A DNA stretch of 59,284 nucleotides, from the NCBI GenBank assembly GCA_937928595.1, contig CALGJV010000030.1:1-59284 (forward strand), written 5' to 3'. The notes beneath the pieces were generated by a model, which worked only from the letters and a program-made list of their open reading frames with translations, was not told the DNA's origin and did no database searches. This document shows, in pieces, positions 25,937-33,960 of the stretch. This DNA is from an uncultured Phycisphaerae bacterium (GTDB taxonomy: Bacteria > Planctomycetota > Phycisphaerae > UBA1845 > Fen-1342). Both the position numbers and the translations under genes were made by a program. The first letter of the stretch is position 1, and each line of letters begins with the position of its first letter.

Positions 25937-27265
25937 ATGCCGCCCGCCACGTGGGTCCCGCTGCTCGGTGCGCTGCTCGCCCTGCTGTGCCTGTGGGGGG
26001 CGCTCGCGGCCGCGCGGCGGCAGCGGCTGATCGACAACCTGCCGACCTGCAAGACGACCGGCGTGTTCATCGGGCTCGTGGAGCTGAAAGGCACCGCCGA
26101 GTCGGAACACCCGCTGGTAAGCCACCTGGCGGAGCGACCCTGCGTGTACTACGAGTGGAACGTCTCGGAGCACTGGTCCCGCACCGTCACCGAGACCTAC
26201 ACCGACAAGGACGGCAAGCCCCGGACGCGGACGCGGCACGAGAGCGGCTGGACGAAGGTCGCCGGCGGCGGGGACGCGCAGCCGTTCTACCTGCGGGACG
26301 ACGAGGGCGTCGTGCGCGTCGTCCCGCACGGCGCCGAAATCGAGCCGGCCGTGGTATTCGACCAAACCTGCGGCCGCGACCATCCGCTCTACTACGGCAA
26401 GGGCCCGCTCCACGCCGTGCGGAACTCCGATCATCGCCGCCGCTTCACCGAGTCGGCGATCGTCCTGCACGCGCCCGTGTATGTCGTGGGCGCGGCCCGC
26501 GAACGGACGGACGTCGTGGCGCCCGAGATCGCCGAGTCGCGCGACGCGCCGCTGTTCCTGATCTCGACGCGCAGCGAGCAGCAGGTGCGCCGCGGCTACG
26601 CCGCGCAGTTCTGGGGGCTCGGTTTCCTCGGGCTGCTGTTCTGGGTCGGCGCGTGGATCGTGCGGGACCACGTCGCCCCGGGTCCGTACCAACCGCCGCA
26701 GCCGCCGGCGCGCGTCCTGCCGTACGTCGGGTTGGGCGCGGCGTATCTCGGCGTGGCCGCGCTGCTCTGGTTCTGGATGGCCTACAACAGCCTCGTGGAC
26801 CTGCGGCAGCGCGTGCGGCAGGCCTGGGCCAACGTCGATGTGCAGCTCAAGCGCCGCGCGGACCTGATCCCCAACCTCGTGCGGGTCGTCGCCGGTCTGC
26901 GCGACCACGAGCGCGAGGTCCAGACCGCGGTCGCGGCCCTGCGCACGCAGCTCGCGGCCACGCCCCCCGGCCGGCCGGGACCCGATCCGGCCGGCTGCGC
27001 GCTGGCGCTGCGGGCGGTCATCGAGCGGTATCCGGTGCTGCGGTCGGACGCGGCCTTCATGCGGCTGCATCAGGAACTCGTGACGACCGAGCAACGGATC
27101 GCGCTGGCCCGCGACTATTTCAACGCGTCGGCGACGTTCTACAACACGCGGCTGGAAACCTGGCCCGACGCGCTGGTTGCACGGCTCGGCCGTCTGCGGC
27201 CGCAGGCGCTCATCAGCGCGACCGCATTCGAGCGCGCGGCGGTGAAAGTCCAGCTCGCGACCTAG
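25937..27265 (+). CDS. GIDE-LemA fusion membrane protein
   Basis: Membrane protein of 442 residues joining two domains normally found apart. Seen: N-terminal helix (~2-25); a GIDE/MULAN-type domain (~30-220) with PTCKTTGVFIGLVELKG, RPCVYYEW and PFYLRDDEGVVRVVPHGAEI; two further helices (~225-245, ~262-285); then a LemA domain with LVDLRQRVRQAWANVDVQLK and RRADLIPNLVRVV, and the LemA-type end FNASATFYNTRLETWPD. GIDE proteins carry a C-terminal RING in eukaryotes that is absent here. LemA proteins are bacterial envelope proteins of unclear role. The two-domain order suggests an envelope-stress or membrane-quality function, which is inference. ATG 25928 is the alternative start. Divergent from glycogen synthase. 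Confidence 0.85.
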   Translation: MPPATWVPLLGALLALLCLWGALAAARRQRLIDNLPTCKTTGVFIGLVELKGTAESEHPLVSHLAERPCVYYEWNVSEHWSRTVTETYTDKDGKPRTRTRHESGWTKVAGGGDAQPFYLRDDEGVVRVVPHGAEIEPAVVFDQTCGRDHPLYYGKGPLHAVRNSDHRRRFTESAIVLHAPVYVVGAARERTDVVAPEIAESRDAPLFLISTRSEQQVRRGYAAQFWGLGFLGLLFWVGAWIVRDHVAPGPYQPPQPPARVLPYVGLGAAYLGVAALLWFWMAYNSLVDLRQRVRQAWANVDVQLKRRADLIPNLVRVVAGLRDHEREVQTAVAALRTQLAATPPGRPGPDPAGCALALRAVIERYPVLRSDAAFMRLHQELVTTEQRIALARDYFNASATFYNTRLETWPDALVARLGRLRPQALISATAFERAAVKVQLAT

Positions 27266-27300
27266 CCGCCCGCTCGAACGCGCGCGGACGAGTTCGGCGT

Positions 27301-27326
27301 AGCGTCCGACCCCCGCGTCGGACGCT
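27301..27326. terminator. Perfect 10-bp hairpin with CCCCGC loop, copy 3
   Basis: AGCGTCCGAC and GTCGGACGCT arms form a perfect stem around CCCCGC, 35 bases after the GIDE-LemA stop and 19 bases after the stop of the small minus-strand frame. Placed to end both converging transcripts. Same loop and arm core as 9375-9392 and 9408-9427. Confidence 0.65.
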
Positions 27327-27345
27327 GCTTCCGCACGTCGCGCCG

Positions 27346-27527
27346 TTACGGCAGCGGCGGCGGGCAATGCGCCGCACGGACCAGGGCGTCGAGCGTGTAC
27401 TCGGTGCCGCGCTCCGGGCAACGGGCCTCGCGCAGCCCGCGCAGGTCTTCACCGCACCGCGGCCCGGGTACGTCTCCGCTGCCGCCCCGCGAGACGGGAC
27501 TCGGTCCGCGGTCTCGGATCACCACCC

Positions 27528-27531
<4 letters not shown>
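27346..27531 (-). CDS. Small protein with degenerate CGYDLRG-type zinc ribbon
   Basis: A 61-residue frame begins with GTG overlapping the cysA stop (GTGA arrangement) and ends with [20 protein letters not shown], plainly related to the planctomycetal zinc ribbon CxxCGYDLRG...CPxCG. Two of the four expected Cys are missing: the first of pair one and the second of pair two. It may be a decayed remnant or a small protein that no longer binds zinc. Overlap with cysA suggests translational coupling. An intact member of this ribbon type is at 53489-54127. The N-terminal ~25 residues are unremarkable. Confidence 0.4.
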
Positions 27532-28615
<1,084 letters not shown>

Positions 28616-28619
<4 letters not shown>

Positions 28620-29515
28620 GGGATGCCCCCCGCCGGCGCGGCCTCAGCAGCGCGCTCCGCGCGGCCGCCGCGGCGCGTGCGCCATTCCACGAGCTGCTTA
28701 GCGCCCAGCGTGACCAGCGCCAGCAGGGTCAGCAGCGAGGCCACGGCGAACGCGCCCGCGAAGTTGTATTCGTTGTACAGGATCTCGACGTGCAGCGTCA
28801 GCGTGTTGGTCAGGCCGCGGATGTGCCCCGACACGACCGACACCGCGCCGAACTCGCCCATCGCGCGGGCGTTGCAGAGGATCGCCCCGTACAGCAGCCC
28901 CCACTTGATGTTCGGCAGCGTGACGCGCCAGAACACCTGGCCGCCGCGGGCCCCGAGCACCAGCGCGGCTTCCTCCTCCTCGGTGCCCTGGCTCTGCATG
29001 AGCGGGATCAGCTCGCGGGCCACGAGCGGGCAGGTCACGAACAGCGTCGCCAGGACGATGCCCGGCACGGCGAAGATGACCTTGATGCCGTGCGCCGCCA
29101 GCCACGGCCCGAGCCAGCCCTGCGCCCCGAACAGCAGCACGTAAATCAGCCCGCTGATCACCGGCGAGACGGCGAACGGCAGGTCGATGAGCGTGAGCAG
29201 CAGGCTCTTGCCGCGGAACTCGAACTTCGCGATCGCCCACGCCGCCGCCACGCCGAACACCACGTTCAGCGGCAGCACGATCGCGGCCGTCAGCATCGTC
29301 AGGCCGATGGCGCCGCGGGCGTCCGGGTCCACCAGCGCCGCCCCGTACGCCGCCAGGCCGTTCTCCAGCGCCTGCGCGAACACCGCCACCAGCGGCAGCA
29401 CCAGAAACAGCCCCAGAAACACGCCCGCCACGCCCAGCAGCAGCACGCGCACCGGCCACGGCTCGGCCGTGGCACGGCTCGGTCGGGCGGCGGCGGTCAG
29501 CGGGGCGGTCGTCAT
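28616..29515 (-). CDS. cysW: Sulfate ABC transporter permease CysW
   Basis: Membrane permease of 299 residues with about six helices. Seen: EAA-type cytoplasmic loop ([25 protein letters not shown]) that docks on Cys[26 protein letters not shown] typical of CysW, and [19 protein letters not shown]. Preceded by GAGGAG; lies 15 bases after cysT and overlaps cysA by 4 bases, indicating tight co-translation. Confidence 0.94.
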
Positions 29516-29530
29516 GCGGTCGGCTCCTCG

Positions 29531-30382
29531 CTAGTCGCCCAACGGGGCCCGGCGCCGCGTGCTCCAGCGCTGAAGCAGGTTGATGGTCAGGAGCAGCACG
29601 AACGAGGCCGCGAGCATCACCAGCGCCAGGGCGGCGGCCCCGCCCGTGTCGAACTGCTCGAGCTTGATCACGATGAGCAGCGGCACGACCTCCGTCTTCA
29701 GCGGCATGTTGCCCGCGATGAAGATCACGGAGCCGTACTCGCCCAGGGCCCGGGCCAGCGCCAGCGCGAACCCCGTCGCCAGCGCCGGGAGGACTTCCGG
29801 CAGAATCACGCGCCGGATCGTCTGCCAGCGCTGCGCCCCGAGGCTGGCCGCCGCCTCCTCCAGCTCCGCGTCCAGGTCCTCCAGCACCGGCTGCACCGTC
29901 CGGACCACGAACGGCAGCCCGACGAACGTCAGCGCCACGACGACCCCCAGCGGCGTGTACGCCACCGGCACGCCCAGCGCCGCCAGCGGCCGCCCCAGCC
30001 AGCCCGTCGGCGCGTACAAGCTCGTCAGCGCGATGCCCGCGACGGCCGTCGGCAGCGCGAACGGCAGGTCCACGAGCGCATCGACCACTTTCTTCAGCGG
30101 AAACCGGTAGCGCACCAGCGCCCACGCCACGATCGCGCCGAACACAACGTTGAGCCCGGCGGCCGCCAGCGAGGCCCCGAAGCTCAGCCGGTACGCGGCC
30201 AGCGCGCGGGGAGCAGTCACGGTCTTCAGAAACGCCGCACTGTCCACCTGCATGCCGCGCACGACGAGCGCCGCCAGCGGAATCAGCACGACGAGGCCGA
30301 AGTACAACAGCGTGAAGCCCAGCGCCAGCCCGAAGCCGGGCAGCACGCTCCGTTTCCGCAGTTGCAGCGCGGCGATCGCCAT
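29531..30382 (-). CDS. cysT: Sulfate ABC transporter permease CysT
   Basis: Partner permease of CysW, 283 residues, about six helices. Seen: RYRFPLKKVVDALVDLPFAL with PTAVAGIAL as in CysT/CysU, EAA loop ELEEAAASLGAQRWQTIRRV, and ARALGEYGSVIFIAGNMP. Its ATG overlaps the sbp stop in an ATGA junction. Confidence 0.94.
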   Translation of the reverse strand: MAIAALQLRKRSVLPGFGLALGFTLLYFGLVVLIPLAALVVRGMQVDSAAFLKTVTAPRALAAYRLSFGASLAAAGLNVVFGAIVAWALVRYRFPLKKVVDALVDLPFALPTAVAGIALTSLYAPTGWLGRPLAALGVPVAYTPLGVVVALTFVGLPFVVRTVQPVLEDLDAELEEAAASLGAQRWQTIRRVILPEVLPALATGFALALARALGEYGSVIFIAGNMPLKTEVVPLLIVIKLEQFDTGGAAALALVMLAASFVLLLTINLLQRWSTRRRAPLGD

Positions 30383-31455
30383 CAGCGGCCCGGCTCGTAG
30401 ATCTGGTCGAACGTCGCCCCGTCGGCGAAGTGCTCCGCGTGCGCCTTCGCCCAGCCCCCGAACTCGGCATCCACGGTGAACAGCTTCAGCGGCTTGAACC
30501 GGTCGGCGTACTTCGCGGCCACCTCGGGCAGCCGCGGACGGTAGTAATGCTTCGCGGCGATCTCCTGGCCGGCCGGCTCATACAGGAACCGCAGGTACGC
30601 CTCGGCCGCCGTTCGCGTGCCGCGCCGGTCCACGACCTTGTCGACGACCGCGACGGGCGGCTCGGCGAGGATGCTTTCCGACGGCGAAACCAGCTCGACC
30701 TTGTCCGGGCCCAGCTGCGCCTGCGCCAGCAGGGCCTCGTTCTCCCACGCCAGCAGCACGTCGCCCAGGCCCCGCTGCACGAAGGTGGTCGTCGACCCGC
30801 GGGCCCCGGAGTCAAGCACCGGTACGTTCCGGTACAGCTTCGTCACGAACTCGCGGGCGGCCGCGTCGCTGCCGTACTTGTGCCGCGCGGAGCCCCACGC
30901 CGCCAGGTAGTTCCAGCGGGCGCCGCCGGAGGTCTTCGGGTTCGGCGTAATGACGGTCACGCCCGGCCGCACGAGGTCGTCCCAGTCCTTGACGCCCTTC
31001 GGGTTGCCCTTGCGCACCAGGAAGACGATCGTGGACGTGTAGGGCGTGCTGTTGTGCGGCAGCCGCTGCTGCCAGTCCTTCGCGATCAGGCCGCTCTTCT
31101 CGGCAATGGCGTCGACGTCGAATGCCAGCGCCAGCGTCACCACATCGGCCTCCAGCCCGTCGATCACCGCGCGGGCCTGCTTGCCCGATCCGCCGTGCGA
31201 CTGCTTCACCCTCACCGTCGCGCCGGTCGTCTCCTGGCAGAACCGCGCGAACGCCGCATTCACCTCCGCGTACAGCTCGCGCGTCGGGTCGTACGACACG
31301 TTCAGCAGCGTTGCATCTCGCGCCGGCGCCACGACCGGCGCCGAGGTCGGCGCGGCCGGCTGCGTCGCGGGAGCCTGAGCCCTGACCAGCGAGACGCCGC
31401 CGGCCGCCACGGCCGCCACGGCCGCCATCATCCATGTCAGCGGACGCTTGCACAT
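30382..31455 (-). CDS. sbp: Periplasmic sulfate-binding protein
   Basis: Binds sulfate (or thiosulfate) outside the inner membrane and delivers it to CysTW. 357 residues with signal peptide ([21 protein letters not shown]). Seen: [13 protein letters not shown] near residue 50, [31 protein letters not shown] and the [20 protein letters not shown] end, all typical of Sbp/CysP. Start at 31455 is fixed by a GGAGG Shine-Dalgarno 8 bases upstream; the longer open frame is Arg-rich and lacks RBS. First transport gene of the operon, 85 bases after the ribbon-helix-helix gene. Confidence 0.95.
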
Positions 31456-31540
31456 CGACCGGACCTCCGGTGCGCCGCGCAGACCTCGGCGCACACCCTC
31501 TCCGCCGCGCGCCTCACCGTGCGAAGCGCGCCCGACCACG

Positions 31541-31816
31541 TCACTCGATGTAGCCCAGAGCCCGCAGCCGCTGCCGGATCGCCTCTACCTCGCGCTCCGT
31601 GAGTCCGGGCGGCTTGCGATCCAGCTTGCCGCCGGCAGCCACGTCCCGCAGCACGTACGTCGCGAACTCCGTGACGCTGCGAAACCCGGTGTTGGCGATC
31701 AGCTCGCCGAGTCGGTCGTACAACTCGCCCGGGATCTTCAGCGTGACCATCCGACGACGCGGGCTCGCACCCTGCTCGGCGGGCGGCTCAACACTCTTAT
31801 AAGGCTCTTCTGACAC
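31541..31816 (-). CDS. Ribbon-helix-helix (CopG-like) regulator of sulfate operon
   Basis: Small protein of about 91 residues. Seen: disordered N-terminal ~22 residues, then [20 protein letters not shown] as beta strand plus helix A, and [19 protein letters not shown] as helix B, the RHH fold in which the strand VTLKIP inserts into the DNA major groove. The remaining ~28 residues ([20 protein letters not shown]) form a helical tail. Start uncertain: GTG 31816 lies 9 bases after a good -10; TTG 31834 and ATG 31750 are alternatives. Directly upstream of sbp on the same strand and over repeated ACACTC sites, so a self-regulating sulfate repressor or activator is the natural reading (inference). 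Confidence 0.75.
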
Positions 31817-31830
31817 TCTTTTGGGAGTGT
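31791..31830. promoter_or_regulatory. Candidate RHH operator: repeated ACACTC half-sites
   Basis: ACACTC at 31791-31796 and again at 31813-31818 (22 bases apart, two helical turns), the latter followed by its inverse GAGTGT at 31825-31830 across a 6-base spacer. The palindrome overlaps the -10 of the regulator gene. Multiple short half-sites at helical spacing are what RHH dimers bind. Confidence 0.55.
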
Positions 31831-31853
31831 ACAAAGACTTCGCCCAGAGTCAA
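31826..31853 (-). promoter_or_regulatory. Promoter of RHH-sulfate operon
   Basis: TTGACT (31853 to 31848) and TACACT (31831 to 31826) with a 16-base spacer, reading into the RHH gene. The best -35/-10 pair in the window. The -10 shares bases with the operator palindrome, so a bound regulator would block polymerase. Confidence 0.6.
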
Positions 31854-31989
31854 GCCCCCCCGGACAGCCACGTTGGGCAGCCAGCCGGGCCGGCCGATGG
31901 CCGTCAGCGAGTACCGCCCGGCCCCCCTTTTCGCCGCCCCGACGCGGCCGGACAATGGGGCGTCACGTCGCCACCCCGGAGGACAGCGC

Positions 31990-33960
31990 ATGTCAGTCTC
32001 CGCGCCGCTGTGGACCCCCACCCCCGAGCGGGCCCGCCAATCGCAGATGTACGCCTTCCTGTCGCGGGTGGCCGCGAAGTACGGCATTCCGGCGGAGTGG
32101 GAGGCCCTGCGCGCCTGGTCGGTGCGGGACCGTGGTGCCTTCTGGGCCGAGCTGCTGGACTTCGTGGAAGTCGCGCCGGCCACACCCGCCAGCGCGCCGT
32201 ACACGGGCACCGGGATGCTCGGCACCCGGTGGTTTCCGGGCATGACCCTCAACTACGCCCGGCACCTGTTGCGCTTCGACGACGACGCCGACGCGCTTCT
32301 GTTCGAGGGCGAGACCGGCCTGCGGGTCCGGCTCTCCCGCCGGCAGCTGCGGGCCGAGGTCGCGCGCTGCGCGGCGGCACTGGCGGCCGCGGGCGTGCGG
32401 ACGGGCGACCGCGTCGCGGGCTTCCTGCCGAACGTGCCGGAGACGGTGATCGCGATGCTGGGGGCGGCCAGCCACGGAGCGATCTGGTCGTCCTGCTCGC
32501 CGGACTTCGGCGTGCGCGGCGTGCTGGACCGCTTCGGGCAGATCGAGCCGACCGTGCTCGTCGTCACGGACGGCTACACCTACGGCGGCAAACCGTTCGA
32601 GACGCTGACGCGCGTCCGCGAGATGCTGCCGCAGCTCCCGAGCGTGCGGCAGGTCGTGGTCGTTCCGTACCTCGCGGCGTGCACCGGCGCACCGCCGCCC
32701 GCGCTGGACGGTCTGCGGAACGGCGTGCTGTGGCGCGATTTCCTCGGCCCGGTCGACGCGGTCGCGCCGCCGCTGCCCTTCACCGAGGTGCCGTTCGATC
32801 ACCCGCTGTTCATCCTGTACTCCTCGGGTACGACCGGCGTGCCCAAGTGCATCGTCCACGGCCACGGCGGCACGCTGCTCCAGCATATGAAGGAGCTGAT
32901 GCTGCACACCGACCTGCGGGCGGGCGAGCGGCTGTTCTACTTCACGACCTGCGGCTGGATGATGTGGAACTGGCTCGTCAGCGGGCTGGGCGCGGGCGCC
33001 GCGCTGGTGCTGTACGAGGGCAATCCCGGCCACCCGACCCTGGACCGACTGTGGGCCCTCGCCGAGCAGACCCGGATGCACGTCTTCGGTACGAGCGCGA
33101 AGTACCTCGCGGCCTGCGAGAAGGCCGACCTGCACCCCGGCCGCGACCACGACCTTGCCGCGCTGCGGTGCGTGTGCTCGACGGGCTCGCCGCTGTCGAG
33201 CGAGCTCTTCCGCTGGACCTACGACCGCGTGAAGCGCGACCTTCAGCTCGCGTCGATCTGCGGCGGCACGGACATCATCTCGTGTTTCATCCTCGGCAAC
33301 CCGCTGCTGCCGGTGTACGCCGGCGAGATCCAGTGCCGCGGGCTGGGCATGGACGTGCAGGCCTGGGACGAGCACGGGCGGCCGGTGACGGGCACGAAGG
33401 GCGAGCTCGTCTGCTGCGCGCCGTTCCCGTCGCAGCCGGTGTGCTTCTGGAACGACCCCGACGGCCGCAAGTATCGCGCCGCGTACTTCGAGCACTACCC
33501 GGGGCGCGAAGTCTGGCGGCACGGCGACTTCATCGAGATCACGGACACGGGCGGAATCGTGGTCTACGGCCGCTCCGACGCGACGCTGAACCCGGGCGGC
33601 GTGCGGATCGGCACGGCCGAGATCTACCGCGTCGTGGAGGGGCTGCCGGAGATCGTCGACAGCCTAGTGGTCGGGCGCGACACGCCGGACCAGGACGTGG
33701 AGGTCTGCCTGTTCGTCGTGCTGCGGCCGGGGGTGACGCTGGACGCGGCGCTGGAGAAGAGAATCCGCGACGCCATCGCGGCGGGGGCCACCAAGCGGCA
33801 CGTGCCCCGGCACATCCGCGCCGTGCGGGCGATCCCGTACACCATCAGCGGGAAGAAGGTGGAACTGGCGGTCCGGCGCGTGCTGCACGGACAGGACGTG
33901 CCCAACAAGGATGCGCTGTCGAACCCGGACGTACTGGAGGAGTACCGCGGAATCGTGTAG
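31990..33960 (+). CDS. acsA: Acetoacetyl-CoA synthetase
   Basis: Activates acetoacetate (acetoacetate + ATP + CoA) for lipid or ketone-body use; 656 residues, the usual size for acetoacetate-CoA ligase. Seen: N-terminal ACAS domain, ATP/AMP loop YSSGTTGVPKCIVHGHGG (~residues 277-295), GGTDIISCFILGNPLLPVYAGEIQ, which resembles AacS rather than acetyl-CoA synthetase, GDFIEITDTGGIVVYGRSDA, and the C-terminal lysine motif ISGKKVE. ATG has GGAGGA upstream; the 39 codons before it in frame lack features. Symbol is given as the generic ligase name because the substrate cannot be proven by eye. Confidence 0.88.
   Translation: MSVSAPLWTPTPERARQSQMYAFLSRVAAKYGIPAEWEALRAWSVRDRGAFWAELLDFVEVAPATPASAPYTGTGMLGTRWFPGMTLNYARHLLRFDDDADALLFEGETGLRVRLSRRQLRAEVARCAAALAAAGVRTGDRVAGFLPNVPETVIAMLGAASHGAIWSSCSPDFGVRGVLDRFGQIEPTVLVVTDGYTYGGKPFETLTRVREMLPQLPSVRQVVVVPYLAACTGAPPPALDGLRNGVLWRDFLGPVDAVAPPLPFTEVPFDHPLFILYSSGTTGVPKCIVHGHGGTLLQHMKELMLHTDLRAGERLFYFTTCGWMMWNWLVSGLGAGAALVLYEGNPGHPTLDRLWALAEQTRMHVFGTSAKYLAACEKADLHPGRDHDLAALRCVCSTGSPLSSELFRWTYDRVKRDLQLASICGGTDIISCFILGNPLLPVYAGEIQCRGLGMDVQAWDEHGRPVTGTKGELVCCAPFPSQPVCFWNDPDGRKYRAAYFEHYPGREVWRHGDFIEITDTGGIVVYGRSDATLNPGGVRIGTAEIYRVVEGLPEIVDSLVVGRDTPDQDVEVCLFVVLRPGVTLDAALEKRIRDAIAAGATKRHVPRHIRAVRAIPYTISGKKVELAVRRVLHGQDVPNKDALSNPDVLEEYRGIV

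Follow-up and report, generated by a model that had tools for sequence, protein, structure and literature searches.

What controls sulfate import in a bacterium of the class Phycisphaerae? In the window (the whole stretch of 59,284 nucleotides analyzed) the genes of a sulfate importer follow a small gene, which the first-pass annotation took for a ribbon-helix-helix (RHH) protein governing the importer from an operator placed over its own promoter. In Proteobacteria the same transporter, sbp-cysTWA, is the target of CysB and Cbl. These are regulators of the LysR type, far larger proteins provided with a ligand domain, whereas the RHH protein is about 70-90 residues long and its putative operator overlies its own promoter.

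The order of the operon, RHH gene-sbp-cysT-cysW-cysA, is as annotated, and the four transport genes match curated NCBIfam models (Table 1). The RHH reading frame can be extended up to a TTG at 31834, but this start was rejected. Since this codon sits inside the promoter, overlapping the -10 hexamer, translation must begin further downstream, from the sequence likely at either the GTG or the ATG listed in Table 1. The extra N-terminal residues of the longer frame are not conserved among homologs.

Table 1. Coordinates of genes and predicted regulatory features of the sulfate operon in the window
Feature	Position	Strand	Remarks
RHH regulator gene	31541..31816	-	start GTG 31816 or ATG 31750; 31 aligned homologs
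sbp, sulfate-binding protein	30382..31539	-	TIGR00971 479 bits, NF008022 515 bits; exact start uncertain
cysT, permease	29531..30382	-	TIGR02139 389 bits
cysW, permease	28616..29515	-	TIGR02140 401 bits
cysA, ATPase	27528..28619	-	TIGR00968 407 bits
-35 hexamer TTGACT of the RHH promoter	31848..31853	-	read from sequence
-10 hexamer TACACT of the RHH promoter	31826..31831	-	overlaps operator
Main operator palindrome, ACACTC-N6-GAGTGT	31813..31830	.	covers -10 and predicted start site
Third half-site, ACACTC	31791..31796	.	22 bp from main palindrome; downstream accessory site
Degenerate palindrome copy in -35/spacer	31835..31852	.	9/14 matches; basis is register

The assignment to the RHH fold is weak for the window protein alone, which scores 14 bits against the Pfam RHH_1 model, under the cut-off of 20.5, and convincing for the family as judged from its sequences. 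RHH_1 is matched by 23 of 31 homologs at E<=0.1 (best 1.8e-5), and the first PDB match of a profile built on 76 family members is NikR, in its RHH domain (E=0.006). The 31 aligned homologs share a VTLKIP strand, two helices and a RLRxLGY tail; in the N-terminal VTLKIP ribbon a K is invariant and a T nearly so. The protein is strongly conserved, and outside the RHH core the most conserved part is the C-terminal helix, RLRxLGY[IL]. Invariant Cys or His residues were found neither in the 31-homolog nor in the 76-homolog alignment. In the AlphaFold2 model (mean pLDDT 82.7) an extended VTLKIP segment is followed by helices at residues 12-22 and 30-42, and then by the tail helix, the predicted fold being the strand-helix-helix of the RHH/CopG-Arc superfamily; the VTLKIP segment receives no beta assignment in the monomer model. 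NikR, Arc, ORF56, AtaR, PrpA and ParD head the list of structural matches. Their Z values (3.6-4.3) are modest owing to the small size of the domain and to its modelling as a monomer. A Foldseek search with this model gave no match below E 0.001, though RHH chains were near the top.

The predicted promoter of the RHH gene is sigma-70-like, the hexamers TTGACT (31853-31848) and TACACT (31831-31826) being separated by a 16-bp spacer on the minus strand. It is the single promoter-like match found on both strands of the 5.5 kb from 27000 to 32500, against 0.2 expected. The half-sites ACACTC (31813-31818) and GAGTGT (31825-31830) make up a perfect 6-6-6 inverted repeat of 18 bp, reading ACACTC-CCAAAA-GAGTGT on the minus strand (31830-31813), the left arm of which overlaps the -10 hexamer. 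The 22-bp step separating the third half-site from the palindrome is also present in homologs, e.g. at locus L003. The degenerate copy, weak on its own, appears to share its register with the good palindromes of homologs (TTGACTCC-N4-GGAGTG). Hexamers and spacer, the half-sites at 31791, 31813 and, inverted, at 31825, and the pair overlapping the -10 had all been described in the first-pass annotation, and agree with the sequence base for base.

Scanned for its 12 fixed bases, ACACTC-N6-GAGTGT occurs once in the entire 3.69 Mb source genome, where no copies with one mismatch were found. Copies with two mismatches are near background (26 per strand, the window copy included, vs 18 for the reversed control). 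The same 3.69 Mb scan revealed no further strong sites beyond the RHH-sbp operon, which is, as predicted from sequence, the only strong target in the source genome. A chance palindrome was rejected on the basis of the single genome copy, the scans for exact sites against a control, the enrichment upstream of RHH genes and the conservation in homologs.

Conservation of the ACACTC/GAGTGT sites, on which the annotated operator had been made to depend, is found in close homologs and across phyla. In the 220 bp preceding RHH genes (59 upstream regions) the half-site CACTCC/GGAGTG occurs at 8.4/kb vs 0.37/kb elsewhere in the same loci, a 22-fold enrichment. When gaps of 0 to 7 are allowed, most of the best palindromes take a gap of 4. 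In register upstream of the RHH gene, a palindrome with at least 9 of 12 matches is present in 33 of 34 regions from Phycisphaerae and second-phylum homologs, as compared to about 10% of shuffled sequences. The helical spacing noted in the window recurs as well. Successive palindromes are spaced by 22 bp in 10 of 19 pairs from the same two groups, and in the rest of the phylum 16 of 22 pairs show a spacing of 11, 22 or 33 bp. These distances are whole helical turns, and dimers bound to the sites would therefore stack on one face of the DNA. TTGAC with a spacer of 16-18 bp lies upstream of 27 of 63 homologs, and in most Phycisphaerae loci the first base of the palindrome has a constant position within a TTGAC-16-TACACT promoter. 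A good palindrome with a 4-bp gap was not found upstream of the RHH gene in L047, L051, L056 and L058; the first of these, an Actinomycetota homolog, has no upstream site.

The RHH gene travels with sulfur genes. Strong homologs were detected in 24 of 61 relatives and sbp in 24 of 61, and all 13 relatives carrying both have them within about 4 kb, in the same orientation in 12; the linkage to sbp in relatives, on which the annotation had likewise been made to depend, is thus upheld. In five relatives (G001, G006, G007, G015, G023) the RHH gene precedes a TauE/SafE permease gene, in G032 and G036 a cysteine dioxygenase (CDO) gene, and in G027 the order is RHH-CDO-sbp. Altogether the neighbour is a sulfur gene in 20 of 24 relatives. 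Two more (G022, G055) lack a sulfur neighbour, but a trans copy of the operator precedes a remote TauE gene or a CDO operon; for the strong homologs of G008 and G028 no sulfur gene lies within reach. Family members are present in 44 of 392 genomes of the wider phylum, Planctomycetota. Among the best 29 of these loci the gene directly downstream is sat in 24, cysC in 2 and TauE in 2, with a sulfur gene in 28. In a second phylum the RHH gene leads sat-phosphodiesterase(-cysC). This set comprises loci titled Armatimonadota and metagenome-assembled genomes titled Bacillota and Hebobacteria, which fall in the same group as the Armatimonadota one, so that a confident count gives no more than two phyla. 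Many members of a subclade marked by GAGYNSVTDF have neither operator nor linkage. Sulfate import, to which the first-pass annotation had confined the regulator, is hence one predicted target, but too narrow a scope, since TauE/SafE, CDO and sat/cysC genes are found in the same position.

The distribution of the sites was also analyzed independently of gene annotation. Across the 61 genomes, 18 exact palindromes were found, vs 0 for the control pattern. Nine are at RHH genes, and another five lie in promoters of TauE, CDO or cysteine-desulfurase/Fe-S operons, all in RHH-bearing genomes. Exact CACTCCNATNGGAGTG has 8 copies in the 392 genomes, of which 4 immediately precede RHH-sat, the others being inside genes. 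Exact sites residing inside genes, or devoid of the promoter architecture (G006, G030, G042, L168-L170, L172), were treated as chance occurrences. At L094, L096 and L097 (genomes G013, G026 and G016) an operator in trans, with the same promoter architecture, precedes an operon for an ABC-type ATPase, a CobW-like GTPase and an Fe-S protein, which in L096 and L097 includes a cysteine desulfurase; these sites possibly mark a wider sulfur regulon.

Eleven relatives have sbp-cysTWA genes and no RHH gene, and none shows the palindrome above chance upstream of sbp. The operator hence tracks the RHH gene, not sbp. In most of these relatives a sigma-54 activator gene adjoins sbp (PF00158 confirmed in three), as was observed at most of the loci L180, L183, L188, L189 and L191-L195. 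The activator occupies the same place beside sbp-cysTWA, but is an unrelated AAA+ protein, and no palindrome stands at these operons. The pattern suggests, as far as gene content goes, the swap of one regulator type for another.

Most probably the RHH protein is a dedicated regulator of sulfur acquisition which represses its own operon. Gene order, promoter, operator, conservation, spacing and trans copies are read from the DNA; binding, repression and the sulfur signal are what we infer. The gene is in this sense a predicted autoregulated operon leader, its putative operator lying over its own promoter and being conserved in relatives. An RHH dimer would insert its N-terminal beta-ribbon (VTLKIP) into ACTCC-N4-GGAGT palindromes, the invariant K and the near-invariant T facing the DNA. 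The bound palindromes would overlap the -10, in many relatives the -35 as well, and adjacent dimers two helical turns (22 bp) apart would exclude RNA polymerase. A dimer on the main palindrome would block the -10, its neighbour 22 bp upstream the -35, and a downstream neighbour would reinforce the block. Upon sulfur shortage the protein would leave the DNA, and the regulator would be made along with Sbp-CysTWA; as the two are co-produced, the system may reset when sulfur returns. In relatives the RHH protein would run TauE/SafE, cysteine dioxygenase, sat/cysC and Fe-S/cysteine-desulfurase operons. The targets being uptake, activation and organosulfur use, derepression is expected under sulfur shortage.

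The sign of control could be the opposite, the RHH protein binding its sites and mainly activating the operon, e.g. by recruiting polymerase when sulfur is scarce. In some homologs there are also sites upstream of the -35, or arrays of sites separated from the start codon by tens of bp, and there an activating layout may exist. In the window and in most close homologs, however, the palindrome covers the -10 and start point and a second copy the -35/spacer, the classical blocking position, and the -35 of the window promoter is already near consensus; activation is therefore improbable. Another regulator might as well read the palindrome, the RHH protein being a passenger or acting elsewhere, as it is co-occurrence that links the protein to the sites. 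Against this, the promoter sites follow the RHH gene whichever sulfur gene comes after it (sbp, TauE, CDO or sat) and are absent before sbp in genomes lacking it, and RHH proteins usually autoregulate through short inverted repeats, which makes an unrelated reader quite improbable.

RHH proteins are often antitoxins, and ParD and AtaR are among the structural matches. Yet the neighbour is a sulfur gene and not a toxin in the window, as in the large majority of the relatives and wider-phylum loci counted above; a toxin partner, as a type II antitoxin would have, was not found among the genes adjoining RHH genes. That the gene is a relic set among chance neighbours would not give rise to this linkage pattern, nor does it fit a protein strongly conserved and provided with a conserved tail of its own. 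Antitoxin or relic, either is highly improbable.

As to the signal to which the repressor would respond, a metal or redox sensor is unlikely, because no Cys or His is invariant. Better candidates are some small sulfur metabolite, by analogy with MetJ, or else a partner of its C-terminal tail. The tail (E..IRxRLRxLGYI/L), encoded at 31541-31612 in the window, is also the terminal element of second-phylum CysC (APS kinase) and of a DUF2061 membrane protein from the same sat operon, as seen at L043 (9422-9449 and 10771-11124) and L046. It further ends a sulfatase-like protein (L056, 17985-19001). Archaeoglobus APS kinase (7yq0) terminates in a similar tail, the profile match being weak (E 0.93). 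Since the helix is common to the regulator, APS kinase and the DUF2061 protein, competition for one partner may follow, although a partner common to the tail-bearing proteins is a guess. It is a speculative idea, and an unlikely one, that the family is an undescribed sulfur master regulator sensing sulfur status via the tail, the regulator and the sulfate-activating enzymes competing for a single partner such as ATP sulfurylase. Were it true, tail competition would couple transcription directly to enzyme state; the tail common with APS kinase suggests a specific hypothesis for sulfur sensing by a small protein.

RHH regulators are known as a kind, and MetJ is a sulfur one: the methionine repressor, with SAM as co-repressor, acting at tandem short palindromes over promoters of sulfur-related genes. 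The present family resembles it in placing an RHH protein and tandem short palindromes at promoters of sulfur-related genes. The two differ in operator (ACTCC-N4-GGAGT vs the met box AGACGTCT), in targets (sulfate uptake and activation vs methionine synthesis), and in the RLRxLGY tail of the RHH family, in which a SAM site was not identified. The window protein does not match the MetJ family in Pfam/NCBIfam up to E=1. The strand-helix-helix core is shared with CopG/Arc proteins and with NikR, the best match by both profile and structure. NikR is concerned with nickel transport, whereas this family is found at sulfur genes, its members ending after the tail helix, without the nickel-binding C-terminal domain and without invariant His/Cys. 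The recurrence of the RHH and palindrome pair before sulfur-uptake and sulfate-activation genes of two phyla points to an undescribed sulfur regulator. An RHH-controlled sulfate importer had been thought new, and among open-access papers none was found that connects sulfate transport, sulfate adenylyltransferase or sulfur assimilation with an RHH protein. Sulfur control is largely unknown outside well-studied phyla. The family would add an RHH protein beside MetJ to sulfur regulation. With one small protein and a readable operator, sulfur regulons can be predicted across Planctomycetota and the second phylum, and direct tests become possible of how these environmentally important bacteria control the import and activation of sulfate.

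In the window an acetoacetate-CoA ligase gene (31990-33960; TIGR01217, 887 bits) is the divergent neighbour. About 160 bp separate its start from the operator, and an effect of the RHH protein on it is therefore possible. L026-L030 and L031 carry more distant RHH paralogs, about 32-42% identical and ending in the same C-terminal tail, and those in L026-L030 adjoin genes for alkaline-phosphatase-like phosphodiesterases. In L057 (6377-9067) sbp is immediately preceded by a diverged second RHH copy. The main copy there is oppositely oriented and precedes a gene for a solute-binding protein with a fused DsrE domain.
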